A DNA stretch of 20,656 nucleotides from a virus. The notes beneath the pieces were generated by a model. It was not told where the DNA came from. It saw only the letters and a list, made by a program, of their open reading frames with translations, and did no database searches. A program made the translations under genes and the position numbers. The stretch covers positions 1-20,656 of the IMG/VR virus record IMGVR_UViG_3300011118_002344. The stretch is one strand, 5' to 3'. Below are positions 1 through 16,142 of the stretch, piece after piece (position 1 is the stretch's first letter; the number at the start of each line of letters is the position of its first letter).

Positions 1-238
1 ATCCGGAGCAAACTTATCCAAAGCAAACTTATACAAAGCAAACTTATCCAGAGCAAACTTATCCGATGCTGACTTATCTGGAGCAGACTTGTTTGGAGCA
101 AACTTACGTGAAGCAAACTTACGCGAAGCAAACTTATCCGAAGCAGACTTTTTTGGAGCAAACTTATCCGGAGCAGACTTACGCGGAGCAGACTTACGCG
201 AAGCAAACTTATCCGGTGCTGACTTATCCGGAGCAAAA
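1..238 (+). repeat. 15-base tandem repeat encoding the pentapeptide units
   Basis: Units resembling 'gagcaaacttatccg' repeat about 16 times with small changes (gagcaa/gagcag, tatccg/tacgcg). The period is exactly 15 bases, matching the five-residue protein repeat. The DNA copies are more alike than the protein fold needs, which suggests recent expansion. The period also keeps a second frame open (66-257), which is a shadow. Confidence 0.85.
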
Positions 239-271
239 ATTGGTGAGGATCAAATGATGTGGTACTACTAA
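2..271 (+). CDS. Pentapeptide-repeat protein, C-terminal part (start outside window)
   Basis: The frame is open from the first bases of the window and ends at a TAA, so the 5' end is missing. It reads as about 16 consecutive five-residue units of the form A(N/D)L-x-x, such as [10 protein letters not shown] and SGADL, followed by a short tail ending MMWYY. This is the signature of the pentapeptide-repeat fold, a right-handed four-sided beta helix. Some members (Qnr, MfpA) mimic DNA and protect or inhibit gyrase, but most have no known role and nothing here decides the function. A TTG at 89 could be an internal start, but the repeats continue upstream without a break, so a partial gene is the better reading. 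The DNA is correspondingly a near-perfect 15-base tandem repeat. The family is certain; the role is unknown. Confidence 0.85.
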
Positions 272-528: not shown

Positions 529-1392
529 ATGAAAGAACTTTTCATTCTTGACGGGCATTATCATGTTCATCGAGCATGGCGCGCTCCTATTCATATTACT
601 CTAACTAGCCCAACGGGCGAGCCGACCAATGGGATATATATTTTTACTACATCTTTGCTTAAGTTAATTCGAGAGCAGGAACCTGATATGTTGGTTGTGG
701 CAATGGAAGGGAGAGGGCCAACATTTCGAAGTGAGTTATATAATGATTACAAAGCTACTCGTTCTCGTCCATCAGATGATTTCATAGCTCAAAGAAATAA
801 AATAGAAGAAATTCTTGAGGCTATGAATATTCCAGTTATTCGGGTTAATGGATATGAAGCGGATGACATAATTGGTACGTTAGCAAAAAAGGTTAGTGCT
901 GATGGGCATGAAGTTTTCATCTGTTCTAATGATAAGGATATGCTACAGTTGGTAGATTCTAATGTTAACATATTTGATGTGAAAACTGGCGACACTACAG
1001 ATTTGAGGGGTATGATTGAGAAAACCGGAGTGAGTCCGGATAAGTTTGTTGATTATTTAGCTTTACAAGGTGACTCTGCGGATAACATACTTGGAATACC
1101 CTATGTGGGATCTAAAACTGCTGCTCAGTGGATAAATGAGTATGGTTCTATCGAGAATCTTATTGAACATATTGATGAATTAAAGAAGAGTAGACGTAAA
1201 GATAGTTTATTGGAATTTAAGGATAGACTTCCTTTGAATAAAGTATTGGTAACTATTATGTGTGATGTACCTATCAGGATAGATTATGATAGTTTTGCTA
1301 TGAAAGAATTTGATAGAGATAAGTTGAGGGAGATTTTTACTGAGTTAGGGTTTAGTCGATTGATTGATAATTTAGGATTGGGTGGGGAGTGA
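529..1392 (+). CDS. 5'-3' exonuclease / flap endonuclease (PolA N-domain, T5 D15 type)
   Basis: This 287-residue protein is a stand-alone 5'-3' exonuclease, expected to remove RNA primers and flaps at the phage fork. Metal-binding motifs appear in family order: LDGHYHVHRAW (Asp8), GPTFRSELYNDYKATR (the family TFRxxxxxxYKxxR helical arch), GYEADDIIG (Glu110, Asp112, Asp113), SNDKDMLQL, and LQGDSADNILGIPYVGSKTA, which is the helix-3-turn-helix DNA-binding segment. The family's usual FD before the arch is ME here, a mild change. In bacteria this activity is the N-terminal domain of DNA polymerase I; here it is separate, and the phage polymerase downstream (10318-12981) lacks it, so the two are complementary. 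The ATG at 529 is preceded by AAGG. The gene ends in TGA just before the next start at 1394. The identification is firm. Confidence 0.95.
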   Translation: MKELFILDGHYHVHRAWRAPIHITLTSPTGEPTNGIYIFTTSLLKLIREQEPDMLVVAMEGRGPTFRSELYNDYKATRSRPSDDFIAQRNKIEEILEAMNIPVIRVNGYEADDIIGTLAKKVSADGHEVFICSNDKDMLQLVDSNVNIFDVKTGDTTDLRGMIEKTGVSPDKFVDYLALQGDSADNILGIPYVGSKTAAQWINEYGSIENLIEHIDELKKSRRKDSLLEFKDRLPLNKVLVTIMCDVPIRIDYDSFAMKEFDRDKLREIFTELGFSRLIDNLGLGGE

Positions 1393-1910: not shown

Positions 1911-2912
1911 ATGTTCAAGCACTGGCAAAAGACCTGTGTTTTTTTAACTAGAAGATGTAATCTTAGATGCAGAGGATGTAATGTCATCAACTTTCAATCT
2001 GCTTATGAGATGACTACTGATGAGTGGAAGAAAGCTTTTGATATTATGAGAAACTATGGAGTAGGTTTTATTGTGCTCTTTGGAGGAGAACCTACTTTAA
2101 GAGATGACCTTCCCGAGATAGTTAAATATCTTAACGAAATTGATATGCCCCATACTATTATAACCAATGGGACTATATTATTGAGGGATGAGGAATATTA
2201 TTGGAAGTTGCTTAAAGCTAAACCTTATGGGATAAGTGTTTCAGTGAATACACTAAAGCCAACTACTAAGTTTCATGATGACTTGAAGAGTGATGTTGGT
2301 CATAAAGTTCTTCTCAAGTTGCTAAAAGATTATCCTGAGTGTGATAAGGTTGCTAACATGGCTGTGACACGAGAAAATATTGAGCTGCTTCCGGAAATAG
2401 TTAGTTACTTTTCTAATTTAGGTGTTTGGAGTATTTTATCTTTCTTTCATGTTAGTCCTCAGAGGGAGGCTATGTATTGGAAATACAGAGGACCAGTTGA
2501 TAAGGATAATAGAAGTTTGGTATTTAGAGAAGAAGATGAAGGGATGATTTCGAGAATTGCTCAATGGTTTATAAATCACTATGATGAATTAAAACTTCAT
2601 AACAGAAAAGAATACTTTGAAGTATGGCGGAAGTACGGAGTAAAACAAAATTGGCACTGTAGGGATTGGACTTGTCCAGCAATAAATCCGGATGGATCGT
2701 TGATGGCATGTATTGATCGAGAGTTGACAAAATCTTTTAATATTCTTGATCTTCCACAAAAGGAAAAAGAAGTATATGAGGATTTTAAGTATGTAATAAA
2801 GGGGTGCCACGGGTTTTGGGATCATATGTGGGAGACCGGCTCTTATGCAGCCGAAAATAAGGCAGAACTTGGGAAGAAAAGATTCTCCCATCAAAGTAAT
2901 AAGGATGAATAG
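1911..2912 (+). CDS. Radical SAM enzyme with SPASM-like C-terminal cysteines
   Basis: This 333-residue protein carries the radical SAM 4Fe-4S motif CNLRCRGC (Cys16, Cys20, Cys23; CX3CX2C) and the SAM-binding GGEP segment (LFGGEPTLRDDL). A C-terminal region has four further cysteines (Cys250, Cys255, Cys267, Cys299) around CPAINPDGSLMAC, the pattern of an auxiliary SPASM/twitch cluster. Such enzymes use a 5'-deoxyadenosyl radical to modify peptides, sugars or other substrates. At 333 residues it is longer than the queuosine enzyme QueE and has the extra cluster, so I do not call it QueE. ATG at 1911 follows AGGAG with ideal spacing. Nearby glycosyltransferase, QueC and DpdA genes make a nucleic-acid or sugar substrate plausible, but the substrate cannot be read from sequence. 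Confidence 0.9.
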   Translation: MFKHWQKTCVFLTRRCNLRCRGCNVINFQSAYEMTTDEWKKAFDIMRNYGVGFIVLFGGEPTLRDDLPEIVKYLNEIDMPHTIITNGTILLRDEEYYWKLLKAKPYGISVSVNTLKPTTKFHDDLKSDVGHKVLLKLLKDYPECDKVANMAVTRENIELLPEIVSYFSNLGVWSILSFFHVSPQREAMYWKYRGPVDKDNRSLVFREEDEGMISRIAQWFINHYDELKLHNRKEYFEVWRKYGVKQNWHCRDWTCPAINPDGSLMACIDRELTKSFNILDLPQKEKEVYEDFKYVIKGCHGFWDHMWETGSYAAENKAELGKKRFSHQSNKDE

Positions 2913-2970
2913 AAAACGGATGTAAGTAAGGATGTAGAAGATTGTAAGTAGGAATGTAGGTTAGATATTA
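2913..2970 (+). repeat. Short repeats with three ATG-stop start-stop units
   Basis: The gap between the radical SAM and HNH genes repeats GGATGTA-like and GTAAGTA-like units. Three of them form a start codon directly followed by a stop: ATGTAA at 2920, ATGTAG at 2932 and ATGTAG at 2954, each behind a GG-containing purine run. They may act as start-stop elements affecting translation of the downstream GTG-start gene, or may be leftover duplications. Confidence 0.35.
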
Positions 2971-3651
2971 GTGAATAAGAAAGTGAATAAAAGAATTGCC
3001 TGGAATAAAGGCATACTTCGTGCAAAAAGAGAAATTCGAACTTGTGCTGCATCAAGTTGTAATGTTACTTTTGAATGTAGAGCAAACAGCACAAAAAAAT
3101 ACTGTTGCAGAAAATGTTATTACAAGACATTTAGTTTAGAGGGAGCGAAAGAGGAGAGAAGCAGAAAGAAAAGAAATGCTTTGCGTGATCCCGTTTATAG
3201 GAAACAAGTAATTCAGGCTGCTCATAAAGGGAATGCATCACGATGGAGTAAGCCAGGAGCCAGCCAAAGACAGAGTGCAGCTCTTATAAAAGCTTATAAG
3301 TCAGGTGTTAGAGAACGGAAATCTGGGAAGGATGCTCCTAATTGGCAAGGAGGGATTTCTAATCTTCCTTATCCATTTGAATTTAATGAAAAGCTAACTG
3401 AGTCTATCAGAGAAAGAGATAATCATACTTGCCAATTTTGTGGTAAAACTCAAGAAGAGGAGTATAGAAAGCTTTCAGTGCATCATATTGATTATGATAA
3501 GGATAATCTTGATTGGAATAATCTTATTACTTTATGTACTAGTTGTAATATAAAAGCAAATTTCAATAGAGAATACTGGAAGGAATTTTTCCAGTTAAAA
3601 CTAAAGGATACTTCTAATGGAAATTCTTATACCAACATATCAACGATGTGA
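2971..3651 (+). CDS. HNH endonuclease, homing type
   Basis: This 226-residue basic protein ends with a clear HNH nuclease module: Cys154-x2-Cys157, a LSVHHIDYDKDN segment with His171-His172, the WNNLITLC stretch and Cys189-x2-Cys192. The N-terminal half has an AWNKG segment of the kind seen in NUMOD-type DNA-binding regions, a cysteine cluster around residues 25-50 that looks like a zinc finger, and a GKDAPNWQGG motif common in phage homing endonucleases. The protein would nick or cut DNA at a specific site to spread its own gene. Translation probably starts at GTG 2971; GTG 2983 is an in-frame alternative. Its last 35 bases overlap the glycosyltransferase gene. Freestanding HNH genes are common phage insertions, so it may not belong to the surrounding pathway. 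Confidence 0.88.
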   Translation: MNKKVNKRIAWNKGILRAKREIRTCAASSCNVTFECRANSTKKYCCRKCYYKTFSLEGAKEERSRKKRNALRDPVYRKQVIQAAHKGNASRWSKPGASQRQSAALIKAYKSGVRERKSGKDAPNWQGGISNLPYPFEFNEKLTESIRERDNHTCQFCGKTQEEEYRKLSVHHIDYDKDNLDWNNLITLCTSCNIKANFNREYWKEFFQLKLKDTSNGNSYTNISTM

Positions 3652-4408
3652 AGTAATTGGCCTTTGCCTTCAGGCATTGGCCTTCCAAACATATCTTCCG
3701 GATAGAATTACTATCCTGGATAGTGGTGAGAGTCCTATTACATCAAACTATACAGTGCGTATGGTTTTTGATATCTTATCTGAGAAACATGTTGAAGTAG
3801 TCTACTTGAGAGAAAACAAAAAAGTTTCTATTGTTGCAGTTAGAAGAAGACTACTTGAAAAGGTAACTCAAGATTTTATGTTTGTTGATGATGATGCTAT
3901 ACTTGAGCCAGATTATGTTAATAAAATGGTAACTGGATTAAGATTATGTTTGAGTGAAGGAAATAGTCCAGTTAATTTTTCTGGTGGATCATTTCTTCTT
4001 CCAAATAATGAAATCAATAAACCAGATTTTTCTACTGAGTTATTTGAAGCTCCTCCTAATAATGTTTCTCAATACCAATATGCCTTTTTCAGATACAAGG
4101 AACCTCAGTTTATTGAAATTGATTATGGAGGAGTATCTGGAGTGTTGTTTAGGTTTGAAGCTAAAGATAGGTTGATAAAGTCTTTAGAGAATCTACCAAA
4201 TGATGCTCCGTTGGAAGATTTTATTTTAACTAAAGCTGCTGGAAGAGGCATACTTAGAACGGATGCTATTGCTTGGCATTTGTTCAATCTAGAGCAAAAA
4301 AGGAATTGGTCCTATGCGCTTGAAAACATTTTGAGAAGAAATTTTGAGCAGCATCCAGAGAAGATTGTAAATTTCTTAAGAAAGGATGAGGAGGATCAAA
4401 ATGGCTGA
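3617..4408 (+). CDS. Family 2 glycosyltransferase (GT-A fold)
   Basis: This 263-residue protein begins with the GT2 nucleotide-sugar fold: MEILIPTYQR, then the second-strand ITILDSGESP, and the metal-binding Asp-rich site FVDDDAILEPDYV (Asp91-Asp93), the DXD equivalent. Later parts (IDYGGVSGVLFR and APLEDFILTKAAGRG) match the acceptor side, with a Glu-Asp resembling the general base ED motif. It would transfer a sugar from a nucleotide-sugar donor. In phages such enzymes glycosylate modified DNA bases or alter host surface sugars; the modification island downstream favours DNA, but this is inference. ATG 3617 lies inside the HNH gene behind AAAGGA, so the two genes overlap by 35 bases. It ends overlapping the next small gene by eight bases. 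No membrane segment is visible, so it is probably cytoplasmic. Confidence 0.85.
   Translation: MEILIPTYQRCEVIGLCLQALAFQTYLPDRITILDSGESPITSNYTVRMVFDILSEKHVEVVYLRENKKVSIVAVRRRLLEKVTQDFMFVDDDAILEPDYVNKMVTGLRLCLSEGNSPVNFSGGSFLLPNNEINKPDFSTELFEAPPNNVSQYQYAFFRYKEPQFIEIDYGGVSGVLFRFEAKDRLIKSLENLPNDAPLEDFILTKAAGRGILRTDAIAWHLFNLEQKRNWSYALENILRRNFEQHPEKIVNFLRKDEEDQNG
4389..4394 (+). promoter_or_regulatory. Ribosome binding site deciding the 4401 start
   Basis: A full AGGAGG sits six bases before ATG 4401, within the end of the glycosyltransferase gene. It argues for 4401 rather than the upstream ATG at 4386, which overlaps the site's edge. Confidence 0.8.
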
Positions 4409-4583
4409 AATACAAGTAGGGATAGAAATGGCTGCTCAAGTGCATTATGAAGAAGCTGTAGAAAAGTATGGTCAAGATTTTGCTGATGCTGTTGTAGCAC
4501 AAGAACTTCAACTTCATGCAGATAATCTTGATTGCTTTGATGAGTATTCAGAATATGATTGGATGCAAGATTTTCTTGCTTAA
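4401..4583 (+). CDS. Small acidic protein, 60 residues, unknown
   Basis: ATG 4401 has an ideal AGGAGG ribosome site. The product is 60 residues, acidic, apparently all-helical, rich in Ala, Glu and Asp (AQVHYEEAVEKYGQDFADAV) and ends FDEYSEYDWMQDFLA. No family is recognised. It overlaps the glycosyltransferase stop by eight bases and is followed after eight bases by the DUF488 gene, so the three are probably translated together. Acidic small phage proteins of this kind are sometimes inhibitors or DNA mimics, but nothing specific supports that here. Confidence 0.75.
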   Translation: MAEIQVGIEMAAQVHYEEAVEKYGQDFADAVVAQELQLHADNLDCFDEYSEYDWMQDFLA

Positions 4584-4591
4584 CTTAAAAA

Positions 4592-4954
4592 ATGATAAAA
4601 ACAAAATCTTTATTTGATCCAGTTGAAGAGTCAGATGGAACTAGGATAATAGTATCTGGAGGATTTCCATCAGGCATTTCTTTTGATGAACATTATCCTG
4701 AGTTGGCTCCTACAAAGAAATTATTGTATGATTACAAGTATCATGAACTTCCTTGGGAAGAGTATGAGGTACGGTTTTTTCAATTGATGCGAGGTCATCG
4801 TGCTCAAAGGAAACTTGAAGAGTTATCAAGAAGATCAAAAAATGGTGAAGTGATAACTTTGCTTTGTTTTGAACATAGTGATGAGAAATGTCATAGGCGT
4901 TTGGTTAAGGGTTTGATAGAGGAAGAAAATGAAACAAGTACAGATATTAGCTAA
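4592..4954 (+). CDS. DUF488 family protein (YeaO-like)
   Basis: The 120-residue product has both ends of the DUF488 pattern: an N-terminal SLFDPVEESDGTRIIVSGGFP, close to the 'iyDp...dG.Riwv..' start of YeaO-like proteins, and a C-terminal ITLLCFEHSDEKCHRRLVKGLI, the family's LLC.E....CHR signature. The biochemical role of DUF488 is not established; the Cys and His residues in the signature could form a catalytic or metal site. The length matches YeaO-type members. No strong ribosome site is seen before ATG 4592, so coupling to the preceding gene eight bases upstream is likely. It may be part of the modification island, but that rests only on position. Confidence 0.75.
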   Translation: MIKTKSLFDPVEESDGTRIIVSGGFPSGISFDEHYPELAPTKKLLYDYKYHELPWEEYEVRFFQLMRGHRAQRKLEELSRRSKNGEVITLLCFEHSDEKCHRRLVKGLIEEENETSTDIS

Positions 4955-5108
4955 TTTTACTGTTGGTGATGATTTAGATGAGGAATTGCTTTTAGAATCA
5001 ATGGAAGCAGCTATCAAAGATGTTTTGTTTGATGTAGATGTTCATTGGATGAATATAAACTGGAATGACTTGGTTCAATCTGTAGAAGTGAATTTACATA
5101 ATGGATAA
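4929..5108 (+). CDS. Small acidic protein, 59 residues, unknown
   Basis: This frame starts at ATG 4929 inside the end of the DUF488 gene and ends at TAA 5106-5108, eight bases into the methyltransferase gene. It has a good ribosome site (GAGGAAGA about four to nine bases upstream). The 59-residue product begins MKQVQILANFTVGDDLDEELL and contains LFDVDVHWMNINWNDLVQSV; it is acidic with Trp and Asp/Asn residues. No family is recognised. Overlaps on both sides and the ribosome site argue that it is real, and it fills what would otherwise be a 146-base gap. Confidence 0.7.
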   Translation: MKQVQILANFTVGDDLDEELLLESMEAAIKDVLFDVDVHWMNINWNDLVQSVEVNLHNG

Positions 5109-5844
5109 CTATCTAAATAAAATAATCTGCGGTGATTGCATTTCAACTATGGATATGATGCAAGCTGAGTCTGTAGACTTAATTATAACATCTCCTCCTT
5201 ACAATGTTGGAATACCATATGATAATTATAATGATTCTCGTCCATTTGATGAATATCATAATTGGTGTAAGCAATGGTTAACTTCTTGCTATAGAGTACT
5301 AAAAAACAATAGAAGAATAGCTATTAATGTATTATTAAACATAGGTAATAATAGGGTGGGAAGAGATAGTCCATGTATTAGGTTTGGTAATCTTCTCAGA
5401 GAAGTTGGATTTAATTTAAATAATGTTGTGATTTGGGAGGATAGGACTAAGAATAAGTTAAGCTCTTGGGGAAGTTGGAAATCTGCTTCATCTCCATATA
5501 TCTATTGTCCTTATGAAGTGATTATTATGGCAAGTAAAGGGAATTGGAAGAGAGAAGATAAAGGAGTGTCAGATATTACTGGTGATGAATATAAAGATTG
5601 GGTGCATGGAATGTGGAAGTTTTCTCCACAACACAGTAAAAGTTTTCCTGTTCCGTTTCCAGAAGAACTTCCTAGAAGATGCATAAAGTTATTATCATAT
5701 GTAAATGATATAGTGTTAGATCCATTTTGTGGTGCTGGTACAACATGTTTAGCTGCTAAGAAATTAAATCGAAGATATATTGGTATTGATATTTCTTCTC
5801 ATTACTGTAGATTGGCGAGAAATCGATTGAAAATATTTTTTTAG
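5101..5844 (+). CDS. DNA methyltransferase, N6-adenine/N4-cytosine, beta-type order
   Basis: The 247-residue protein has the catalytic motif IV as TSPPY (residues 30-34) near the N-terminus, and the SAM-binding motif I as DPFCGAGTT (from Asp207) near the C-terminus. This order is that of the beta class of amino-methyltransferases. SPPY is frequent in N4-cytosine enzymes and also occurs in N6-adenine ones, so the target base is left open. Between the motifs lies a target-recognition stretch (about 80-190). No restriction endonuclease gene is adjacent, so this is probably an orphan phage methylase giving protection from host restriction or marking the DNA. It overlaps the preceding small gene by eight bases and is followed after 11 bases by a second methyltransferase. 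Confidence 0.93.
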   Translation: MDNYLNKIICGDCISTMDMMQAESVDLIITSPPYNVGIPYDNYNDSRPFDEYHNWCKQWLTSCYRVLKNNRRIAINVLLNIGNNRVGRDSPCIRFGNLLREVGFNLNNVVIWEDRTKNKLSSWGSWKSASSPYIYCPYEVIIMASKGNWKREDKGVSDITGDEYKDWVHGMWKFSPQHSKSFPVPFPEELPRRCIKLLSYVNDIVLDPFCGAGTTCLAAKKLNRRYIGIDISSHYCRLARNRLKIFF

Positions 5845-5855
5845 AGGGATTGAAA

Positions 5856-6599
5856 ATGAAGTTTGAGGATATGATGGATATTGATTTGAGCAACTGGAAA
5901 GATTTTAGTCATGTTCATACTAAAAGTGCTTGGTTTGATAAGAGTGATTATCATCTTTCTACTAAGGAATATGGAAGTAATAAGTTTCACGGAAGATTTC
6001 ATCCTGAAATTCCTTATCAGATGATGTTACGTTACACGAAGAAAGGTGAAGTTGTTTGGGATCCCTTTGCCGGTTCTGGTACTACTATAGATGTAGCAAA
6101 GTTATTGGAAAGACGTTGTATTGCTAATGATATTGTATCCACTCGTCATGACATAATTCCAGCGGATAGTAGAATTTGGAAGCCAGATGAGAATGTTCAA
6201 TTAGTTATAATGCATCCACCATATTGGAATATGATTAATTTTACTGATAAATCATCTGATTTGAGTAGTACTCTTACTGTTGAAAGTTTTGCTAATGAAT
6301 TTAAGAAAGTTGTCAGTAATGCTACTGATGTTTTAGATAATGAAAGAATACTAGTGTTGGTTATCTCAGATAGATATTATAAGGGTGAAGAGATACCTTT
6401 AGATTTTGTTTGCTATAATGAAATAGTTAAGTTTGGATATAAGTTAAAAGGGAGAATCGTAAAGAATTTTGGTGAAACAAAGGGTGGGGATTCAACAGGA
6501 CCTCAGAATAAGAATTTGTGGAGATACAGAGCACTAAAAGGAGGTTTTTGGGAATTAGGTCTTGATTGGATATTAGTTTTTCAGAAAGGAAAAAAATAA
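5856..6599 (+). CDS. DNA methyltransferase, second, motif I first
   Basis: From ATG 5856 (ribosome site GAGGG at 5844-5848; a TTG at 5850 is less likely) the protein has 247 residues. SAM-binding DPFAGSGTT begins at Asp69 and the catalytic motif follows as HPPYW at residues 120-124. The order is therefore opposite to that of its neighbour. The catalytic motif has His in place of the usual Asp/Asn/Ser before PPY, a variant seen in some phage and orphan methylases. The N-terminal KFHGRFHPEIPYQM segment before motif I resembles the lead-in of this subfamily. It probably methylates an exocyclic amino group in DNA; the target is unknown. Its stop TAA shares one base with the ATG of the QueC-HAD gene, which suggests tight co-translation with the deazaguanine genes. 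Confidence 0.88.
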   Translation: MKFEDMMDIDLSNWKDFSHVHTKSAWFDKSDYHLSTKEYGSNKFHGRFHPEIPYQMMLRYTKKGEVVWDPFAGSGTTIDVAKLLERRCIANDIVSTRHDIIPADSRIWKPDENVQLVIMHPPYWNMINFTDKSSDLSSTLTVESFANEFKKVVSNATDVLDNERILVLVISDRYYKGEEIPLDFVCYNEIVKFGYKLKGRIVKNFGETKGGDSTGPQNKNLWRYRALKGGFWELGLDWILVFQKGKK

Positions 6600-7588
6600 T
6601 GAGTGAAAGAGTATTATTGTTTTCGGGCGGGATTGATTCATATATCGCGTGGCACTATTTGAATAGACCAAGGACAGTTTACTTTGATTTGAAAACTCCA
6701 TACAGCGACTATGAAGTTCGAGTAATCAAGGAACTGATCCCTAACACAATTATAGACAATTCTCTTAATCTTGCTTCAAGACAAGATCAAAAATCAGATG
6801 CCTCATTTATTCCTATGAGAAATCTTTATCTTGCCATGTTAGCTTGTAAATATGGAGATGAAATTATCATTTGTGGATTAGAGGATGATCATGTGGATGA
6901 TAAAACATCGGAAGCATTTGCAAGATTTTCAGACTTGTTATCTGATTTTAATGGTAGAAGAATAAAAGTAACAAGTCCTTTTTGGGAAATGTCCAAAGCT
7001 GATATTGTTAAATGGTATCTGAAAAAGTATCATGGAGATGCCTCTAAATTATTGGAAACAATAAGTTGCTATACTCCAAATTTGCAAGATGGAGTTGGCA
7101 TAAAACGATATTGTGGAAAATGCCGTTGCTGTTTTAGAAAATGGAATGCTCTTTATGTTAATGGAATTGAATTACTTTTTCATAATGTTGGAATGATGAA
7201 GGAGTATTTTATTAGGGCTCGTCAAAATTATTACACACCTAAAAGAAATGCTTCTATAATTAAAACTATATCTAATTATGGAAAGAAATCTAAGTTTAAG
7301 CATCTCGGAAAAGTTTATATGATTGATATTGATGGTATCTTAACTAATGAAATAGAAGGTCATGATTATGAAAATAGAACTCCAAACCATAAGAATATTA
7401 GTAAAGTGTACTCACTTTGGGAGCAAGGAGCAATAATAATTTTGTGGACGAGCAGATACTCAGAGGATGAAAAGGTTACAAGAGAATGGATGAGGCGCTT
7501 AGGAGTGAAGTATGATCAGTTGATACTGGGGAAGCCTCAGTATGATGGAATAATTGATGATAAAGTTATTAATTTAGATAAAGTTTAG
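6599..7588 (+). CDS. queC: QueC-like 7-deazaguanine synthase fused to HAD phosphatase domain
   Basis: The 329-residue protein joins two enzymes. Residues 1 to about 195 are QueC-like: the ATP-pyrophosphatase loop SGGIDS (9-14), FIPMRNLYLA, SPFWEMSKADI and the zinc site Cys157, Cys172, Cys175, Cys178 (CGKCRCC). QueC converts 7-carboxy-7-deazaguanine to preQ0 using ATP and ammonia. Residues about 235-329 are a HAD-type phosphatase domain: DIDGILT (Asp243, Asp245), ILWTSRYSED and GKPQYDGIIDDK, most like small HAD phosphatases found in capsule and sugar clusters. Plain QueC is about 220-230 residues, so the C-terminal domain is an addition. ATG 6599 has AGAAAGGA upstream and overlaps the methyltransferase stop. 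With dpdA close downstream, it likely feeds a deazaguanine base into DNA. The HAD substrate is unknown. No queD, queE or folE is in the window, so the precursor may come from the host or from genes elsewhere. Confidence 0.88.
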   Translation: MSERVLLFSGGIDSYIAWHYLNRPRTVYFDLKTPYSDYEVRVIKELIPNTIIDNSLNLASRQDQKSDASFIPMRNLYLAMLACKYGDEIIICGLEDDHVDDKTSEAFARFSDLLSDFNGRRIKVTSPFWEMSKADIVKWYLKKYHGDASKLLETISCYTPNLQDGVGIKRYCGKCRCCFRKWNALYVNGIELLFHNVGMMKEYFIRARQNYYTPKRNASIIKTISNYGKKSKFKHLGKVYMIDIDGILTNEIEGHDYENRTPNHKNISKVYSLWEQGAIIILWTSRYSEDEKVTREWMRRLGVKYDQLILGKPQYDGIIDDKVINLDKV

Positions 7589-7603
7589 TTTTTGAAGTTA
7601 CAA

Positions 7604-7843
7604 ATGTTTAAGATAGGTATTCAAAAAACTGGTTGCGGTAAAGCTGCTATTACATGCGATGTCAAGGTTAATACTTTACCTGAAGTTGAAGCCAAAGCAC
7701 TGGAATTTGCCTCCACTATTTTTCCAGGTAAAGATATTAGACTTGTTTATGAAGAAGATTCTGAGGAAAATGCTTTGATTTACTATATTTATGAAGGTGG
7801 AGTTTCTGAACATATTGGTAGAGTAGGAATTAAATCTTTGTGA
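7604..7843 (+). CDS. Small protein between queC and dpdA, unknown
   Basis: From ATG 7604 the product has 79 residues; TTG 7592 would add four. It starts MFKIGIQKTGCGKAAITCDV and contains EVEAKALEFASTIFPGKDI and ALIYYIYEGG, which looks like a small alpha/beta fold. No family is recognised. Sitting between the two deazaguanine genes with gaps of 15 and 29 bases, it probably shares their transcript and may be an accessory factor, but nothing in the sequence proves this. The ribosome site is weak (TGAAG). Confidence 0.65.
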   Translation: MFKIGIQKTGCGKAAITCDVKVNTLPEVEAKALEFASTIFPGKDIRLVYEEDSEENALIYYIYEGGVSEHIGRVGIKSL

Positions 7844-7872
7844 AAGTTTTTAAGTAGAAAGAGGAGTGAAGT

Positions 7873-8865
7873 ATGCGCATTTATCATGCTGGTGTTGCTA
7901 ATTATGGTATGTCATATCCTGAACTCATGATGATGCTTGAGAGAAAAGAAGTTTATACTCTTGAGTCATTTTGGTATCGTGCTAGATTAGAAAAAGCATT
8001 CGAGAGATATCCTACATTTAAAATCTTTTTAGACTCTGGAGCATATAGTTGGGATCATCAGATGACTATGCAGGGTAAAACAGTTACGGAAGAGGATGAA
8101 ATTGAGTATTTGAATAGTTATATAAGATTTATTAAAAAGTATGAGGATAGATTATATGTTTATGCTAATTTAGATTTTGTTGGCGATCCTGAAAAAACTA
8201 TGATGATGCAGGAACGAATGGAAGCTGCTGGATTAAATCCATTGCCAGTTTTTCATTATCATGGAAAACAGGGAGATCCTAATATTGAAAAAGTTCATTT
8301 TAAGTATTTAGAAAGATTAGTTGAGAAGTATGATTACATAGCTCTTGGAGGAGGAGTTAGTGGAGGGCTATTTAGTTATAAGTATATGTCTAAGTTTGGA
8401 GATGCAGCATTTAAGATAATTGATTCTTGTGGAAGAGATGTTAAAATTCATGGGTTTGGTTTAACATCTGTTCCAGTTATGTTGAGATATAATTGGTTTT
8501 CTGTAGACAGTACGAATTGGATAAAGAGTGCAGCTTTTGGAATAGTATACATACCCGTTTTTGATCATAAAACTGGTGAGGCTATATATGATAAAATTCC
8601 AAAACGCCTTTGCGTTTCTGAGATAGGTAGAGTGAAAGATACTGTAGCTGGGCATTATTCTCATACATATGTGGGAGATAAAGAGACAATAGAAAAGATC
8701 CACAATTATTTCAATTCCATTGATATAGATATGAAGAAGATGGAAACAGAATCTCTTGAAAGAGTTAGAGCTAATTTTAAGTATTTTGATGCCTTTTTGA
8801 AGAACAGAAATGAGTTTTACCCGAAGGGTGTAATTGATAAACGAGTAGATAAAAAATTGTTTTAG
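7873..8865 (+). CDS. dpdA: DpdA-like DNA guanine transglycosylase
   Basis: The 330-residue protein has the TGT-like barrel motifs of phage DpdA proteins: FLDSGAYSW (Asp54), YANLDFVGDP, a PVFHYHG strand, YIALGGGVSGG, HGFGLTS and SVDSTNW (Asp212). The two Asp sites match the base-binding and nucleophile positions of tRNA-guanine transglycosylases. DpdA exchanges guanine in DNA for a 7-deazaguanine made by the Que enzymes, which shields phage DNA from restriction enzymes. The tRNA-specific C-terminal domain of bacterial Tgt is absent, as in DpdA. ATG 7873 follows GAGGAG. The QueC gene just upstream strongly supports the call. Which DpdA subfamily this is, and which derivative is inserted, needs comparison and chemistry. 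A diverged copy of its last 10 codons appears again at 9195-9224. Confidence 0.87.
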   Translation: MRIYHAGVANYGMSYPELMMMLERKEVYTLESFWYRARLEKAFERYPTFKIFLDSGAYSWDHQMTMQGKTVTEEDEIEYLNSYIRFIKKYEDRLYVYANLDFVGDPEKTMMMQERMEAAGLNPLPVFHYHGKQGDPNIEKVHFKYLERLVEKYDYIALGGGVSGGLFSYKYMSKFGDAAFKIIDSCGRDVKIHGFGLTSVPVMLRYNWFSVDSTNWIKSAAFGIVYIPVFDHKTGEAIYDKIPKRLCVSEIGRVKDTVAGHYSHTYVGDKETIEKIHNYFNSIDIDMKKMETESLERVRANFKYFDAFLKNRNEFYPKGVIDKRVDKKLF

Positions 8866-9174: not shown

Positions 9175-9194
9175 AAGGGTGGGTATTTGGATCA

Positions 9195-9237
9195 GATAAA
9201 CGAGCAGACAAGAAATTGTTTTAGGAGAAAGAAAATG
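9195..9237 (+). repeat. Direct repeat, copy 2 (dpdA tail remnant before clamp gene)
   Basis: This copy reads DKRADKKLF-stop in the frame matching dpdA. Differences from copy 1 are mostly silent or conservative (gat/gac, aaa/aag, gta/gca). It supplies the TAGGAG ribosome site for the clamp gene at 9235. The resemblance extends weakly upstream through a GAAAGGGTG element. Confidence 0.85.
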
Positions 9238-10308
9238 AAATTGAATAGAGAAACATTACTTCAACAGCTGGAGAGGGCTTATCCTGCTATTGCACTGAAT
9301 CCAATCGTGCCTCATTATTCATATTTTAAGATTAGTAAAGGACATGATGGATTGAAAGGTTCTGTCCAAGCTTTCAATGGATTAGTATTAGTAAATGCTC
9401 AAATAGTTGAAGATGTAGAATATGACTGTGCAATACCTGCTGAACCATTTATAAAGTTATTGCGAAGTCTTGAGGATGATGAAGTTGAGCTGATTTTTAA
9501 AGGTACTGAGGTTAAAGTTAAAACTGATGCAGTTAAGGGAACTTTTACAATACTAGATGAGATTCATAAAAAAACTATATCTTTATCAGGTGATCTTGTT
9601 AGTGATAAGGAAATTATTCAAGATCTAATTAATGGATTAAACATATGTAGATTATATGTATCTAAAGATCAAACATCCGGGCCTATGCGTGGAGTGAGGA
9701 TAGATGGAGATAAACTTATAGCTACGGATAGATATAGAGTAGTAGTTTGGAAATTGGATAATGATATTCCAGTTAATTGTTCTATTCCACCTAAGTTTAT
9801 TGATATTGTATTGAAGAATAAAGAGCAGATTAAGGAGCTTTTTCTTGCTAAAGGTGAATTTACAGTTATTTTGAATGATGGTACATGGATTAGTACATTA
9901 CTCTTGAGTGGAGATTATCCAAATGTTCTACAGTATTTTCCTACTTCGGATAACTATAAAAGAATCAAGTTTACTGATGAAATATCTAGTGCCATAGAAA
10001 GACATGTTACTTTTCTTTCTCGAGTGGATTTGATTGATAAAGAAATATCTGTTCAAATTTTGAAGGATAAGTGTGTAACTAAGTCAAAAGATAATAGTTT
10101 AGGTTCTTTAGTTGATGAAGTTAACATTATATCTAAAGAGGATTTGAATATAGAATTTTTTGTAAATCCAGTATTTTTGAAAGATGTTGTAGATATTTGT
10201 TCCTGCTTTAAGTATTATGAAGAAAGTGGATTAATAATTCTTGAGTCAGATAAGTTGTCTGAGTCTGATAAGCTTCGATATTTGACACAGGTGCGAGAGA
10301 ATGAATAA
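9235..10308 (+). CDS. DNA polymerase sliding clamp, DnaN (beta) type
   Basis: From ATG 9235 the protein has 357 residues, close to the bacterial beta clamp. The clearest hallmark is GVRIDGDKLIATDRYRVVVWKL, which follows the second-domain 'GV...L..vATD.hRL' pattern. The first domain has AFNGLVLVNAQI and CAIPAEPFIKLLRSL; the third has SGDYPNVLQYFP, the 'G.yPd...l.P' strand. It would encircle DNA and tether the phage polymerase encoded just downstream. A TTG at 9187 would add 16 residues, but these come from the repeated dpdA tail and the real ribosome site AGGAG lies before 9235. T4-like phages use a PCNA-type clamp, so a DnaN-type clamp separates this phage from close T4 relatives. Confidence 0.88.
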   Translation: MKLNRETLLQQLERAYPAIALNPIVPHYSYFKISKGHDGLKGSVQAFNGLVLVNAQIVEDVEYDCAIPAEPFIKLLRSLEDDEVELIFKGTEVKVKTDAVKGTFTILDEIHKKTISLSGDLVSDKEIIQDLINGLNICRLYVSKDQTSGPMRGVRIDGDKLIATDRYRVVVWKLDNDIPVNCSIPPKFIDIVLKNKEQIKELFLAKGEFTVILNDGTWISTLLLSGDYPNVLQYFPTSDNYKRIKFTDEISSAIERHVTFLSRVDLIDKEISVQILKDKCVTKSKDNSLGSLVDEVNIISKEDLNIEFFVNPVFLKDVVDICSCFKYYEESGLIILESDKLSESDKLRYLTQVRENE

Positions 10309-10317
10309 GGGATAAGA

Positions 10318-12981
10318 ATGGGAAAACAAAAAGCTTTTTTCTTAAGCAATTGGGAAATTTTTCAAAAAGAACACCCTGAGAAATTTGAGAGAAAACCATC
10401 TTCAGGTGGAAAGAGATCTAGCAAGAAAATATATGATTGCAGTACTTGTGGACTCCATAGAAAATGTAGAAGTCCCAAAATGGAAAGGTTTGGGAATGGA
10501 AAGAAGAGAATTCTTATAATAGGACAAAATCCAGGAAGGGTAGAGGATAGAGAAGGAATACCTATGGTTGGCCCATCTGGAAGACTTGCAAATAGGATGT
10601 TTGGATATGTTGGGATAGATATGGATGAGGATTGTGAAAGAACAAATATTGTTCAATGCTATCCAGGACAGAATAGTAAAGGTGCAGATAAAGATCCTAC
10701 AAAGGATCAAATTAAATGTTGTCGGGAACGAATATTGAGAGATATTGAAGAGGTTAAGCCTAAGTTAATCATATGTTTTGGTACACCTGCTATAAATGCT
10801 GTTTTGAAAGATCAATATACAATAGGTTTTACTGCTAATCAAATGCATGGAAAGGTTGTTCCATGTCATAAGCATAACTGCTGGGTAGGGTGTTCTTATC
10901 ATCCTGCTTTCTTTAGATATAGAAAAAGGAAGAAGGATAAGTTTCCTGATGATGAGATTATTCTTGGATATGATTTGGCAAATATAATTTCATATCTTGA
11001 TCAACCTCTTCCTCAACCTTTATCTACAGAGGGAAATAAGTGTATTACTAATGTTGAAGAAGTTATTAAAGCTATTGAAGATTTGTGTATTTCATATAAA
11101 CCAACAGCTTATGATTATGAAACAACTAATCTTTATCCTTGGATAGAAGGTGCTGAGTTATTATCAATATCAGCATCTAATGATATAAATTCTGGAATAT
11201 TTATTCCTTTGAAATTGAAATATGATAATGGGGATATGATTTTTAGTCTTCAACAGCAGGAATTGATTTTAGATGCTTGGAGAAAATTCTTAAGGAGTGA
11301 TATTCCAAAGGTAGTTCAAAATATTAATATGGAAGAGATATGGAATAGGATGTATCTAAATCAATCTGCAAGTAATATTATTCATGATACTATGATTGCA
11401 GCTCATGTGATAAACAACAGTTCAAATACAACTAGTTTGGGTTTTCAGACTTTTATACTCACTGGACATAGTTATAAAGGGATGGTTGATGTTAAGAAGT
11501 TATTATCAGAACCACTGGAAAAAGTTTGCAATTATAACTGCTGGGATTCAAGATATACGTTGATGTCTTACTATGATCAAAAGAAAACTTTTAGTATAGA
11601 GAAACGATTAGGTGAATTTTATAAATTTTATCATGAAGGAGCAAAAGTTTTAGTGAGTTTGAGGGAGAGAGGGAATAGGATAGATATGGATATTCTTCAG
11701 GAGCTTGATGATAAATACTTAGCTGAGCGAGAACTTAGAATAGAAGAGATGAGGTCCCTTCGCGGAGTTAAACAATATGAAGAGGAGTCAGGCAATACAT
11801 TTAACCCTGAATCTGCTACAAGGCAGCTTCAAAAGATTTTGTATGGGATATATGGAGTAGAGAAAACAAGAGAACTTACAACTCCATCAGGATTGGGATG
11901 TACAGATAAAAATGCTATTCAAATTATTCTTGGAAAGACTAAGAATGATGATGTTAGAAAATTGCTCGCAGGACTTACTAGATTTAGAAAAACTTGTAGT
12001 ATTACTGAGCGGATTACTAACTATAAAAATGTTATGGATTCAAAGTCTTATGTTCATCCTTCTTATAATTTGAATATGGCTGATACATATAGATCTTCTT
12101 CTTGTGATCCAAATATTCAAAATGTATTCCAGCATGATAAGGAGCTTCGAATATTTAGGAAATGCATAGTTCCGACTAGAGGAAGAATTATATTGGAAGT
12201 TGACCATAGTGGTATGGAGGTTAAGGGTATAGCTATGGCTTCGGGAGATCCAGAGCTTATCAGGCAGATTAAAGAAGGTGTGAAATGGACGAAGGAACAT
12301 CCTGAAGGTGGGCATAATCCTTATGATACTCATTATAGGTGGTCAACAAAGGTTTATTCGAAATCTGTAGATGATGTAACTAAAGATGAGAGATATATTA
12401 TAAAGAATCAATTTGTGTTTCCTAGTTTTTACGGTTCTATAGCTAAAAGTGTTGCACGAAATTTTCCTAATATTCCTGCTGATCATGTGATTCAGGTTCA
12501 AAAAGAATTTTGGGAGGAGTATCACTATGTTAGGGAATGGCAGAATAGAGTACTACATGATTACTTAAAGAATGGATATGCTGAAGCATTAAATGGTTGG
12601 AGACGAATAGGACCATTATCTATTAATCAGCTGTTCAATAATTTGATTCAGGGAACATCTTTTCATCTTCTTCTCGGAGCTTTGATTATGATAGAGCTTG
12701 AATTTCCAAGAAGAAAGCTAAAAACGGTTGCTGATGCTGAGATTCATGATTCTATTAAATTTGATGCTGTGTTGAAAGAATTGAGTGAAGTAATTGATGT
12801 AGCTTCGGAAATATTATGTTCAAAACAATACAATTGGCAGAAAGGTATTCCTTTGGGAGTTGAATGGGAAATAGGGTACAATTGGCATGACATGCATTCA
12901 ATTATAATAAATAATCAAGAGAAGTTTGTAGTGGTAGACAAAGAAAGAATTAAATTGGAAGATCTTGTACTTACCATATAG
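10318..12981 (+). CDS. Uracil-DNA glycosylase / 3'-5' exonuclease / family A DNA polymerase fusion
   Basis: The 887-residue protein has three parts. Residues about 38-200 match family 4 uracil-DNA glycosylase: Cys41, Cys44, Cys114 and Cys134 or 135 fit the Fe-S ligands, with IIGQNPGRVEDREG and IPMVGPSGRL, and SYHPAFF near 195. The usual GE.PG of motif 1 is GQNPG here. Residues about 260-420 are a DnaQ-like proofreading domain: DYE (Asp266, Glu268), NINME with Glu339 where Asp is usual, and Asp410. Residues about 430-850 are family A polymerase: motif A LEVDHSGMEVKG (Asp629, Glu634), motif B Lys696 with FPSFYGS, and motif C IHDS (Asp811; HDE in most). It is the phage replicase. It lacks the 5' nuclease domain, which is the separate gene at 529. 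ATG 10318 follows AAGGGATAAG. The fusion suggests uracil sensing or removal coupled to synthesis; whether the glycosylase is active is open. Confidence 0.93.
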   Translation: MGKQKAFFLSNWEIFQKEHPEKFERKPSSGGKRSSKKIYDCSTCGLHRKCRSPKMERFGNGKKRILIIGQNPGRVEDREGIPMVGPSGRLANRMFGYVGIDMDEDCERTNIVQCYPGQNSKGADKDPTKDQIKCCRERILRDIEEVKPKLIICFGTPAINAVLKDQYTIGFTANQMHGKVVPCHKHNCWVGCSYHPAFFRYRKRKKDKFPDDEIILGYDLANIISYLDQPLPQPLSTEGNKCITNVEEVIKAIEDLCISYKPTAYDYETTNLYPWIEGAELLSISASNDINSGIFIPLKLKYDNGDMIFSLQQQELILDAWRKFLRSDIPKVVQNINMEEIWNRMYLNQSASNIIHDTMIAAHVINNSSNTTSLGFQTFILTGHSYKGMVDVKKLLSEPLEKVCNYNCWDSRYTLMSYYDQKKTFSIEKRLGEFYKFYHEGAKVLVSLRERGNRIDMDILQELDDKYLAERELRIEEMRSLRGVKQYEEESGNTFNPESATRQLQKILYGIYGVEKTRELTTPSGLGCTDKNAIQIILGKTKNDDVRKLLAGLTRFRKTCSITERITNYKNVMDSKSYVHPSYNLNMADTYRSSSCDPNIQNVFQHDKELRIFRKCIVPTRGRIILEVDHSGMEVKGIAMASGDPELIRQIKEGVKWTKEHPEGGHNPYDTHYRWSTKVYSKSVDDVTKDERYIIKNQFVFPSFYGSIAKSVARNFPNIPADHVIQVQKEFWEEYHYVREWQNRVLHDYLKNGYAEALNGWRRIGPLSINQLFNNLIQGTSFHLLLGALIMIELEFPRRKLKTVADAEIHDSIKFDAVLKELSEVIDVASEILCSKQYNWQKGIPLGVEWEIGYNWHDMHSIIINNQEKFVVVDKERIKLEDLVLTI

Positions 12982-13274: not shown

Positions 13275-14228
13275 ATGTCACTATATCAAGAAATCAGGCC
13301 GGAAAAGTTTGAAGGCATAGTAGGAAATTCTGCCACCATTGGAGCACTTAGAAGCATGCTGAGAAAACCTGCTGATTCTCAATCTCATGCTATACTCTTA
13401 AAAGGGCAGTCAGGATGTGGTAAAACTACATTAGCTCGTATTTTAGCTAATGAATTTGGATCTAATAAGGATTCTATATTTGAACTGAATGCTGCTAATA
13501 CTAATGGAATTGATACTATTAGAGAGATAGCTAAAAATTCACATCTAATAGGTCTTGGGGGTCATGCTAAGACTTATATCTTTGATGAATCTCATGAACT
13601 TACAGGAAAAGCTCAAGAAGCTCTTCTAAAAATAATTGAGGATAATCCATCTCATTGTTATTTTATCTTTTGTACAACAAGTCCAGAAAGCATTATTAAA
13701 ACTATTCGGAATAGATGTACTGAATATGAAGTTGGCTTGCTACGAGGGAATGGAATAATAGAGGTTCTTAAAAGGGCTTGTGAGAAGAAGAGTTTAGATG
13801 TTTCTTCTGATATTATAGAAGCTATATCCTATACTTGTGATGGATCGCCAAGAGATGCTTTAGTTTCATTAGAGCAGGTTGCAGGAATAGAGAATATTGA
13901 TGAAGCTCTTGAGCTGCTGGTAAGTGGAACAGAAAGAGATGCTTCTATTTTGGATTTACTTAAGCTGCTAATAATGGGTCCTGAGGCAAGAAGAAAGAAA
14001 TGGAAGAAAATTATTACGACCTTTGATGCTATTGATGAAGATAGTGAACGAATTCGGCGGTCTATTTTAACATTCTTGTACAACAAACTTAAGAAGTATG
14101 ATGATGTACAGGAAGCTTTGGATATAACTCATTTACTGAGAATTTTTTCAATTAGCACTTATTATGGGAAGAAGAGTCAACTGGGCTCTCTTGTTGCAAG
14201 GGCTTGCTTTGAAACTTGGAAAGATTAA
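13275..14228 (+). CDS. Clamp loader ATPase, DnaX/RFC type
   Basis: The 317-residue AAA+ protein carries Walker A GQSGCGKT (44-51), Walker B IFDESHEL (Asp104, Glu105), sensor 1 FCTTS (132-136), a TIRNRC arginine-finger segment (Arg147; NRC instead of the usual SRC) and sensor 2 GSPRDAL (Arg193). The start SLYQEIRPEKFEGIVG is the standard 'R..P..f..ivGq' of DnaX. It would load the DnaN-type clamp onto primed DNA by ATP hydrolysis. Bacterial DnaX has a four-Cys zinc finger after Walker A; it is absent here, as in phage and RFC-type loaders. A separate small subunit gene is not seen in the window. ATG 13275 follows TAGGAG. After its TAA the same frame stays open for 53 codons (next entry). Confidence 0.93.
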   Translation: MSLYQEIRPEKFEGIVGNSATIGALRSMLRKPADSQSHAILLKGQSGCGKTTLARILANEFGSNKDSIFELNAANTNGIDTIREIAKNSHLIGLGGHAKTYIFDESHELTGKAQEALLKIIEDNPSHCYFIFCTTSPESIIKTIRNRCTEYEVGLLRGNGIIEVLKRACEKKSLDVSSDIIEAISYTCDGSPRDALVSLEQVAGIENIDEALELLVSGTERDASILDLLKLLIMGPEARRKKWKKIITTFDAIDEDSERIRRSILTFLYNKLKKYDDVQEALDITHLLRIFSISTYYGKKSQLGSLVARACFETWKD

Positions 14229-14390
14229 GAAGTTATTGTTAGGATAACTGAATTACAAAAAGTAGAACTTGATATTAAGAAGGCTGAACTTAAATTAGTG
14301 CGTCTTGATGTAGAACACCAGAAAGTTCAAATAGAATCATTGAGGCTTGATGTAGAACACCAGAAAGTTCAAATAGAATCTTGGAGGTGA
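14229..14390 (+). CDS. Coiled-coil reading frame in phase with clamp loader stop
   Basis: Immediately after the clamp loader TAA the same frame runs 53 codons to TGA 14388. It contains no ATG or TTG and only one GTG (14298), so a normal start is hard to find; an ATT at 14235 is possible. The translation is heptad-like and charged (ITELQKVELDIKKAEL, then LDVEHQKVQIES twice). The two LDVEHQKVQIES units come from a perfect 35-base repeat with a period of 42 bases, exactly 14 codons, which supports coding. Choices are readthrough of the TAA to give a tailed clamp loader, a non-standard start, or the remains of a gene that lost its start. A complete anti-SD match GGAGGTGA at 14383-14390 has no start codon at the right distance. 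Confidence 0.4.
   Translation, partial: EVIVRITELQKVELDIKKAELKLVRLDVEHQKVQIESLRLDVEHQKVQIESWR
14304..14380 (+). repeat. 42-base tandem repeat, two copies
   Basis: A 35-base segment beginning CTTGATGTAGAACACC occurs at 14304-14338 and identically at 14346-14380. The period of 42 bases equals two coiled-coil heptads. Perfect identity suggests a recent duplication. Confidence 0.92.
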
Positions 14391-14501
14391 ACTTCGTTTT
14401 CAAACGATAGGTGATGATGAGGAACATAAAAATCGTATTGCGTAAAAATAGTAATTTGATTTAAACAATAATGTAAACAAATTTAATTTGGAGGAAGTAC
14501 A

Positions 14502-15398
14502 ATGGATAAGAGTAGAGAGCAATCTATTGATGATGGTGCTAATATGAGTACCGGAGGCGTCAATTTCAATTATGTTGACACAGCTAAATTGGAGAGGTTG
14601 GGTATTGGTCGTTACAATACCAAGAAACCAAAAGGAAATAATTTTATTAGGATAGTGGCTCCCAGTGCTACAGGTGCTTTTGCTAAAGAAATATGGAAGC
14701 ACGATAACATAGGTGCAAATAATGCTACTTTTTTGTGCTTGGATAAGATGTTTGGTAAAGCTTGTCCTATATGTAATCAGGCTCAGGAATTGAAGGCATC
14801 AGGTGCAGGTAATGATGTAGTAAAAGAGCTTGCTCCAAGTAGAAGATTTCTTCTTTTTGTGATTGACACTACATCAGCTGAAACTGAGGAAGAAGGTCCT
14901 AAGTGGTTTGACTGCCCACAATCAATTTATAAAGCGGTTTGTACTTTATCAAAGGATAGAAGAACCGGAGCAAAGATAGATCCTACTGATCCAGATGATG
15001 GAAGGGATATTGAATTTGTTAGAAATGATGGTAAGAGAACTTCATATGATGGATTTGTGCTTAAAGAAACTAAACCAATTCCTAATAGTTGGTATAGTGA
15101 TTTGCCTTCTTTTGATGAAATTCTTTTGATCCCTGATCCTGTTGAAATGGAAGCAACTGTTTTAGGTAAAAAAACTTCTACTTCAAAGGATAGAGCAGAG
15201 GTAGATGAAAATAGAGATAGAAAGAGTAGGGATGACTCAAGAAGTAGGGATGACTCAAGAAGTAGGGATGACTCAAGAAGTAGGGATGACTCAAGAAGTA
15301 GAGGTAGGAGTGATTCAGATGATGCTCAAGCTCAATCAGTTAAAGATAAGCTAGATGAGATCAGGAATCGCAAAAGAAATAGTGTAGAGGAGAAATAA
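14502..15398 (+). CDS. Single-stranded DNA binding protein, T4 gp32-like, with RS-repeat tail
   Basis: This 298-residue protein coats single-stranded DNA during replication and recombination. His67, Cys79, Cys88 and Cys91 (FLCLDKMFGKACPIC) reproduce the order and near spacing of the zinc ligands of T4 gp32 (His64, Cys77, Cys87, Cys90). The OB-fold region follows, with LAPSRRFLLFVID and YDGFVLKETK. The C-terminal 70 or so residues are disordered and charged, with four DNA-perfect repeats of SRDDSR, then SRGRSDSDDAQAQS and a basic helix. T4 gp32 has an acidic tail that recruits partners; the RS/D mix here is different and is a likely docking site. ATG 14502 follows GGAGGAAG. The next gene, UvsY-like, starts three bases after its stop, matching the functional link between SSB and mediator. 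Confidence 0.85.
   Translation: MDKSREQSIDDGANMSTGGVNFNYVDTAKLERLGIGRYNTKKPKGNNFIRIVAPSATGAFAKEIWKHDNIGANNATFLCLDKMFGKACPICNQAQELKASGAGNDVVKELAPSRRFLLFVIDTTSAETEEEGPKWFDCPQSIYKAVCTLSKDRRTGAKIDPTDPDDGRDIEFVRNDGKRTSYDGFVLKETKPIPNSWYSDLPSFDEILLIPDPVEMEATVLGKKTSTSKDRAEVDENRDRKSRDDSRSRDDSRSRDDSRSRDDSRSRGRSDSDDAQAQSVKDKLDEIRNRKRNSVEEK
15225..15296 (+). repeat. 18-base tandem repeat in SSB tail, four copies
   Basis: AGTAGGGATGACTCAAGA repeats four times without change, and a fifth copy breaks down after AGTAG. Each unit encodes SRDDSR in frame. The identity implies recent slippage and suggests that copy number varies between relatives. Confidence 0.95.
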
Positions 15399-16097: not shown

Positions 16098-16142
16098 GGG
16101 ATAACTTGGGCTATAACTAAATTGAATGATGGAAAAAATAAT

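Follow-up and report, generated by a model that had tools for sequence, protein, structure and literature searches.

A divergent QueC-HAD protein linked to DpdA and a second radical SAM enzyme: a candidate branch of phage 7-deazaguanine DNA hypermodification

Introduction

To our knowledge, the known 7-deazaguanine pathways of phages end in preQ0, G+, ADG, preQ1 or small derivatives. The virus record IMGVR_UViG_3300011118_002344 (G000; its 20,656 bases are called the window here) raises the question of whether some phages go further. A run of genes at 1911-8865 combines a QueC-HAD fusion and the DNA guanine transglycosylase DpdA with a radical SAM enzyme, a GT2 glycosyltransferase, a DUF488 protein and two methyltransferases (Table 1). 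A sequence-only reading of the window took this run for a single DNA hypermodification island with more chemistry than preQ0 requires. Profile matches to Pfam and PHROG bear out its assignment of all these genes, and its coordinates are correct. The reading also counted four small proteins without a function, but one of them is an HNH endonuclease, and two small unknowns lie inside the interval. Which of these genes belong together, and what might they make? We lean slightly towards the view that the QueC-like protein makes a substituted amide from 7-carboxy-7-deazaguanine (CDG) and that the pathway is a new branch of 7-deazaguanine DNA hypermodification.

A divergent branch of the QueC family

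There is little doubt that the island belongs to a 7-deazaguanine DNA-modification pathway, of which it would encode the late steps. Its DpdA matches phrog_887 (3e-39) and is 32-37% identical to phage DpdA proteins, and tblastn matched it to 167 of 50,697 deposited phage records. The motifs LDSGA, NLD, HGFG.TS and SVDST are conserved among its relatives. D54, D101 and D212 are invariant in seven relatives, and no solved tRNA-guanine transglycosylase was matched by sequence to assign them.

The QueC domain matches Pfam QueC (6e-16) and phrog_1550 (4e-20), and the HAD domain C-terminal to it matches phrog_1238 (1.5e-15). The sequence-only reading recognized the QueC motifs correctly but overlooked how far the protein has diverged. 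It scores 42.2 bits against TIGR00364, the equivalog model for canonical QueC, which has a curated cut-off of 150.3 bits, and 19 bits against the QatC model NF041925, with a cut-off of 280. In a tree of 93 proteins, built by a quick method without bootstrap and with some forks open, 78 proteins were split from 15 canonical or GAT-QueC proteins by a branch with SH-aLRT support of 99, and 14 of those 15 came from phages that also carry one of the 78. We named this second PF06508 branch QueC2. Larger proteins from the genome scan (L119-L125) were excluded as lacking the QueC2 signature. No published description of the family was found, and one may exist outside the literature searched.

QueC2 proteins retain SGGxDS, [IV]PxRN, SCY, the zinc cysteines (CxxCxxC) and the Asp of YPDC. 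The Tyr of YxQxHxxE is gone in nearly all of them (except L072 and L080), and so is the Tyr of YPDC (except L082 and L092, which have YxDC). The window protein likewise has the SGGIDS loop, IPMRN at the VPxRN motif and the zinc cysteines C157, C172, C175 and C178. Where canonical QueC has YxQxHxxE it reads DLKTPYSDYE, with Glu alone retained, and where canonical QueC has YPDC it reads HVDDK, with the Asp kept and the Tyr changed to Val. Replacing either Tyr of E. coli QueC with Ala abolishes queuosine formation (Libby et al., PMC13329287). Cap9 binds deazaguanine through this Tyr and Asp, a pair also present in B. subtilis QueC (Gao et al., PMC13279940), whereas QueC2 has only the Asp. An AlphaFold2 model of the QueC-HAD protein (pLDDT 83, pTM 0.77, from seven sequences) matched the structures of QueC (2pg3, 3bl5) and Cap9 (9nto). 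Judged by its sequence, the window QueC is a divergent paralogue and probably not a plain preQ0 synthase, and QueC2 probably does not make chiefly preQ0. The dADG phage MED16 was also considered as an explanation for QueC2, but it was no help, as only dpdA was found there.

The cassette in related phages

Searching IMG/VR with a profile of the QueC domain gave 133 loci, of which 80 were kept, and hidden Markov models built here were run over 103 loci. The recurring set consists of FolE, QueD, QueE, QueC2, HAD (fused or separate), the second radical SAM enzyme, DpdA and PolA. This cassette is widespread and apparently undescribed. Groups A, B and C were assigned by eye from the QueC tree, and group C is the branch of the window. 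In the 24 group C loci where QueC2 is flanked by 4 kb or more on each side, the radical SAM gene is present in 22, DpdA in 21, HAD and QueE in 18 each, FolE in 17, QueD in 14 and canonical QueC in one, and contig ends make these counts lower bounds. Every radical SAM gene placed in group C shares the strand of QueC2, and one type (rSAMb) is directly upstream of QueC2 in 14 loci. In group B, 13 of 19 loci additionally carry a canonical GAT-QueC, and thus QueC2 is not simply the QueC of those phages. A short-chain dehydrogenase recurs by QueC2 in phages with another radical SAM type, rSAMc (L017, L055, L056, L065, L071, L074, L077), and most of these phages also have GAT-QueC.

The sequence-only reading had named co-conservation with dpdA as a check on its proposal. 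The radical SAM enzyme, QueC-HAD and DpdA do travel together in dozens of phages, and GT2 joins them in seven, which agrees with chemistry beyond preQ0. The idea of the whole run as one unit holds for these three genes and, in a subset, for GT2, but not for the HNH gene, the second methyltransferase (MT2) or the small open reading frames (ORFs). The first methyltransferase (MT1) and DUF488 are confined to the closest relatives.

The first relative found, L002, is a 33.3 kb IMG/VR record with the radical SAM, GT2, DUF488, QueC-HAD and DpdA genes in the order of the window, next to the same replication genes (protein identity 54-84%). HNH, MT2 and the 65-, 83- and 98-aa ORFs are missing there, and its MT1 is reduced to a 32-aa stub. 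The closest near-complete relative, L111, is on a 179 kb contig (JAHQJS010000001.1, covered by L111 and L126-L134) from the metagenome-assembled genome 'Candidatus Borrarchaeum weybense', and the QueC domain of its QueC2 is 72% identical to that of the window. With its long runs of genes on one strand and its genes for a baseplate wedge protein (phrog_219, 4e-71) and a head maturation protease, this contig reads as the genome of a contractile-tailed phage; an archaeal origin was therefore rejected. The contig and the window are collinear from the exonuclease through the phosphoesterase gene, and the contig encodes FolE, QueD, QueE and a second radical SAM enzyme. QueD is also present in G001 and G002. 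Going by these relatives, the phage of the window very likely makes CDG itself. The L111 contig also has a second, split DpdA (23592-24261) and a further QueC-like protein (10995-11630). The clearest arrangement is in L105, where a single run contains QueD, QueE, a 124-aa ORF, FolE, HAD, QueC2, the radical SAM enzyme, two GT2 genes, a 306-aa ORF and DpdA, placing the radical SAM and both GT2 genes between QueC2 and DpdA.

The radical SAM enzyme and GT2

The radical SAM protein of the window has a CX3CX2C motif (C16/C20/C23) and a GX4C twitch/SPASM-like C-terminus with C250, C267 and C299. It is very likely to belong to the pathway. We rejected the idea that it is QueE because it matches MoaA/SPASM models better and the relatives have a separate QueE. 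A role as a maturase of ribosomally synthesized and post-translationally modified peptides was judged unlikely, since the 65-aa ORF beside GT2 has no counterpart outside the window. The deposited phage records held no full-length match to this protein and three partial ones (about 30% identity); rSAMc had only two partial matches there, also of about 30% identity, and the type found in L012 had none. Scans with the window radical SAM and GT2 proteins gave no relatives beyond those already found.

GT2 has a VDDD (DXD) motif, and Foldseek matched its model to SpsA, TarP and AvpGT, as expected of a GT-A enzyme. The model (pLDDT 75, poor at the C-terminus) shows a generic GT-A fold that is silent on the acceptor. 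Homologues near QueC2 occur in seven phages, namely that of the window, L002, L010, L011, L111, L023 (weak) and L105 (two copies), and L023 and L105 are on a different branch of the QueC tree from the window. None of the deposited phage records matched GT2. Its linkage to the cassette makes it slightly more probable than not that GT2 acts on the base or a base precursor.

Proposed pathway

The sequences provide the gene identities, their linkage, the split of the QueC family, the loss of signature residues and FolE, QueD and QueE in relatives. The amide reaction, the HAD substrate, the order of steps, glycosylation and an anti-restriction role are what we infer, and the confidence given to each step is a judgement, not a measurement. 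FolE, QueD and QueE, encoded outside the fragment to judge from the relatives, would make CDG from GTP. QueC2 would then activate the CDG carboxylate by adenylation with ATP and couple it to a non-ammonia amine, which would yield a substituted 7-carboxamide. For this product we regard the arguments on the two sides as evenly balanced. The fused HAD domain may remove a phosphate from the amine partner or from the product, and the second radical SAM enzyme may alter the side chain. DpdA would insert the modified base into DNA in place of guanine, either earlier or later than the other steps, and GT2 would add a sugar in the subgroup of the window. There are precedents for an amide of CDG, in that Cap9 attaches CDG to an amine on a protein (PMC13279940), and for a carboxyl handle on a phage base, in CmoY (PMC12783734).

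The nature of the amine or sugar may be hinted at by the HAD domain, whose nearest solved structure, as judged from the AlphaFold2 model, is AfhF (9iqw), a phage D-arabinose 1,5-diphosphate phosphatase. In many relatives, a phosphoribosyltransferase-like domain (VDDIVDSG-type motif) is fused N-terminally to FolE (L013, L019, L036, L040, L042, L045, L060, L071, L073, L074, L078, L112). Furthermore, QueC2 homologues sit in biosynthesis-like gene runs on actinomycete plasmids. They have the QueC2 signature, with SAGLDS for SGGxDS, and are annotated as 7-cyano-7-deazaguanine synthase. The Streptomyces loci contain QueD, QueE, FolE, ribulose-phosphate 3-epimerase, HAD proteins, a nonribosomal peptide synthetase-like gene and a radical SAM gene, and in one of them a phosphoribosyltransferase is annotated. 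In the Amycolatopsis locus, QueD and QueE are accompanied by a nucleoside 2-deoxyribosyltransferase, ribulose-phosphate 3-epimerase and a HAD protein. Together, the FolE fusion, the actinomycete loci and the likeness to AfhF suggest pentose-phosphate chemistry, as a lead only. Our most specific proposal is tentative and somewhat more likely to be wrong than right: a widespread modification of phage DNA, namely a 7-deazaguanine with a substituted, perhaps pentose-derived carboxamide that a QueC-like synthetase would form from CDG, trimmed by HAD, altered by the radical SAM enzyme and glycosylated in this lineage, with a synthetase shared with an actinomycete pathway.

Alternative explanations

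QueC2 might instead be a fast-evolving, isofunctional QueC, with DNA that carries preQ0 or ADG decorated by the radical SAM enzyme and GT2, which is close to the sequence-only reading. In its favour, 14 records of 47-110 kb (of unknown completeness) have no PF06508 protein besides QueC2, and most of them have CDG genes near it; QueC2 retains the ATP, zinc and base-reading Asp sites; and group A has FolE, QueD, QueE and QueC2 without this radical SAM enzyme. But the two tyrosines it has lost are essential in E. coli, the GAT-QueC of most group B loci would make it redundant, and the window protein falls far below the cut-off of the QueC equivalog model. We consider this explanation unlikely, though it is the strongest of the rivals.

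The group A phages, which partly have DpdA as well, also weigh against the amide pathway, since QueC2 there could simply make preQ0 or ADG. Several other points weigh against it. FolE, QueD and QueE were not found in the 20.7 kb window, where the sole radical SAM gene is not QueE. The window radical SAM protein lacks one near-invariant C-terminal Cys (GCHG-FW against CPGC-AW in relatives), and GT2 is found in few phages. Because the records are fragments of unknown completeness, the lack of a canonical QueC in them is no more than suggestive.

An improbable reading is that QueC2 acts in counter-defence on a tRNA or on a protein, the latter being the target of Cap9 and the proposed target of QatC, and that it lies near DpdA by chance. 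Cap9 and QatC do apply the QueC fold to protein N-termini (PMC13279940), and Cap9 is among the closest solved structures, but DpdA accompanies QueC2 in most well-flanked group C loci, and no partner with an N-terminal Gly motif (MGGS/MGTS type) was noticed among recurrent neighbours, where it was not searched for specifically. Least probable is that only QueC and DpdA belong together and the radical SAM, GT2, DUF488 and methyltransferase genes are independent. Relatives do show no linkage for HNH, MT2 and the small ORFs, but against this reading stand the position and strand of the radical SAM genes, the L105 run, and the deposited phage records, of which 167 match DpdA but none GT2 and few, only partially, the radical SAM proteins.

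Relation to known systems

DpdL, DpdM and DpdN are reportedly a decarboxylase, a methyltransferase and a formyltransferase that tailor phage 7-deazaguanine (Cui 2023), without a radical SAM enzyme, QueC2-HAD or GT2. They likewise act on the phage base, and they are set apart from the cassette by description, not by sequence. We found no paper joining deazaguanine, phage, radical SAM, glycosyltransferase and hypermodification. The preQ0 and G+ pathways of phages CAjan and 9g (FolE-QueD-QueE-QueC or GAT-QueC-DpdA; Hutinet 2019, PMC6884629) share DpdA, a PF06508 enzyme and, in the relatives, the CDG genes with the cassette, where QueC2 replaces or joins QueC and HAD, a second radical SAM enzyme and GT2 are added. 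The 5-carboxymethylcytosine system CmoA/CmoX/CmoY (PMC12783734) follows the same logic, with a base carboxyl as the handle for an ATP-dependent amide ligase, but with another base and other enzymes; the ligase proposed here is QueC-like. Cap9 of type IV CBASS and QatC of qatABCD are, like QueC2, non-canonical PF06508 enzymes, and no CD-NTase or qat gene was recognized in the window. AfhF, from phage HY126, shares the HAD fold and acts on a pentose phosphate, while the HAD here is fused or adjacent to QueC2.

A QueC2 branch tied to HAD, a radical SAM enzyme and sometimes GT2 points to a base that targeted liquid chromatography-mass spectrometry panels may not cover; the phages with the cassette are known mostly from metagenomes. 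If our proposal is true, the QueC scaffold would have been put to yet another use, in addition to preQ0 synthesis and protein deazaguanylation, and the cassette might be a source of new DNA-modifying enzymes. The actinomycete gene clusters offer culturable hosts for a direct test of the reaction.

Other genes of the window

The genes of the window are nearly all on the + strand, and phage replication genes flank the island on both sides. No tRNA genes were found in the window.

Table 1. Positions of genes in the window, the L111 contig and three actinomycete plasmid loci
Sequence	Feature	Position	Strand	Remarks
Window	Partial pentapeptide-repeat protein	89-271		Window edge
Window	5'-3' exonuclease	529-1392		
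Window	Radical SAM, second type (not QueE), twitch/SPASM-like C-terminus	1911-2912	+	Pfam 4e-19; core
Window	HNH endonuclease, 226 aa	2971-3651	+	8e-9
Window	GT2 glycosyltransferase, GT-A fold, DDD motif	3617-4408	+	Pfam 5e-9; accessory, kept in subset
Window	Small ORF	4386-4583		No family given
Window	DUF488-N3a ('active' subclade)	4592-4954	+	2e-21
Window	MT1, N6/N4 DNA methyltransferase	5101-5844	+	
Window	MT2, partial N6/N4 methyltransferase	5850-6599	+	
Window	QueC2-HAD fusion	6599-7588	+	QueC part about residues 1-230, HAD phosphatase about 238-325; core
Window	Small ORF	7592-7843		No family given
Window	DpdA, DNA guanine transglycosylase	7873-8865	+	Core
Window	Sliding-clamp-like protein	9187-10308		
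Window	Family A DNA polymerase	10318-12981		N-terminal uracil-DNA glycosylase (UDG) superfamily domain
Window	Clamp-loader-like ATPase	13275-14228		
Window	gp32-like single-stranded DNA-binding protein	14502-15398		
Window	RecA	16122-17201		
Window	Phosphoesterase	19434-20378		
L111 contig	QueD	119638-120654		
L111 contig	Second radical SAM	142883-143881		
L111 contig	QueE	150918-151808		
L111 contig	FolE	157739-158320		
L135	QueC2 homologue	13989-14693		Actinomycete plasmid (Streptomyces longwoodensis)
L136	QueC2 homologue	13986-14690		Actinomycete plasmid
L137	QueC2 homologue	13983-14696		Actinomycete plasmid

We rejected the HNH gene and MT2 as pathway genes because both are absent in relatives that keep the core, where the 65-, 83- and 98-aa ORFs are absent too. 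Relatives of the HNH endonuclease occur at three other sites of the L111 contig, and it is probably mobile. MT1, intact in L111 (71% identity), is probably an ordinary methylase. A 170-aa protein (1382-1894), to which Pfam and NCBIfam gave no match, has a signal-like N-terminus and a tail, VPELATIILLGFGSLVFVKFR, that resembles a PEP-CTERM-type sorting tail.

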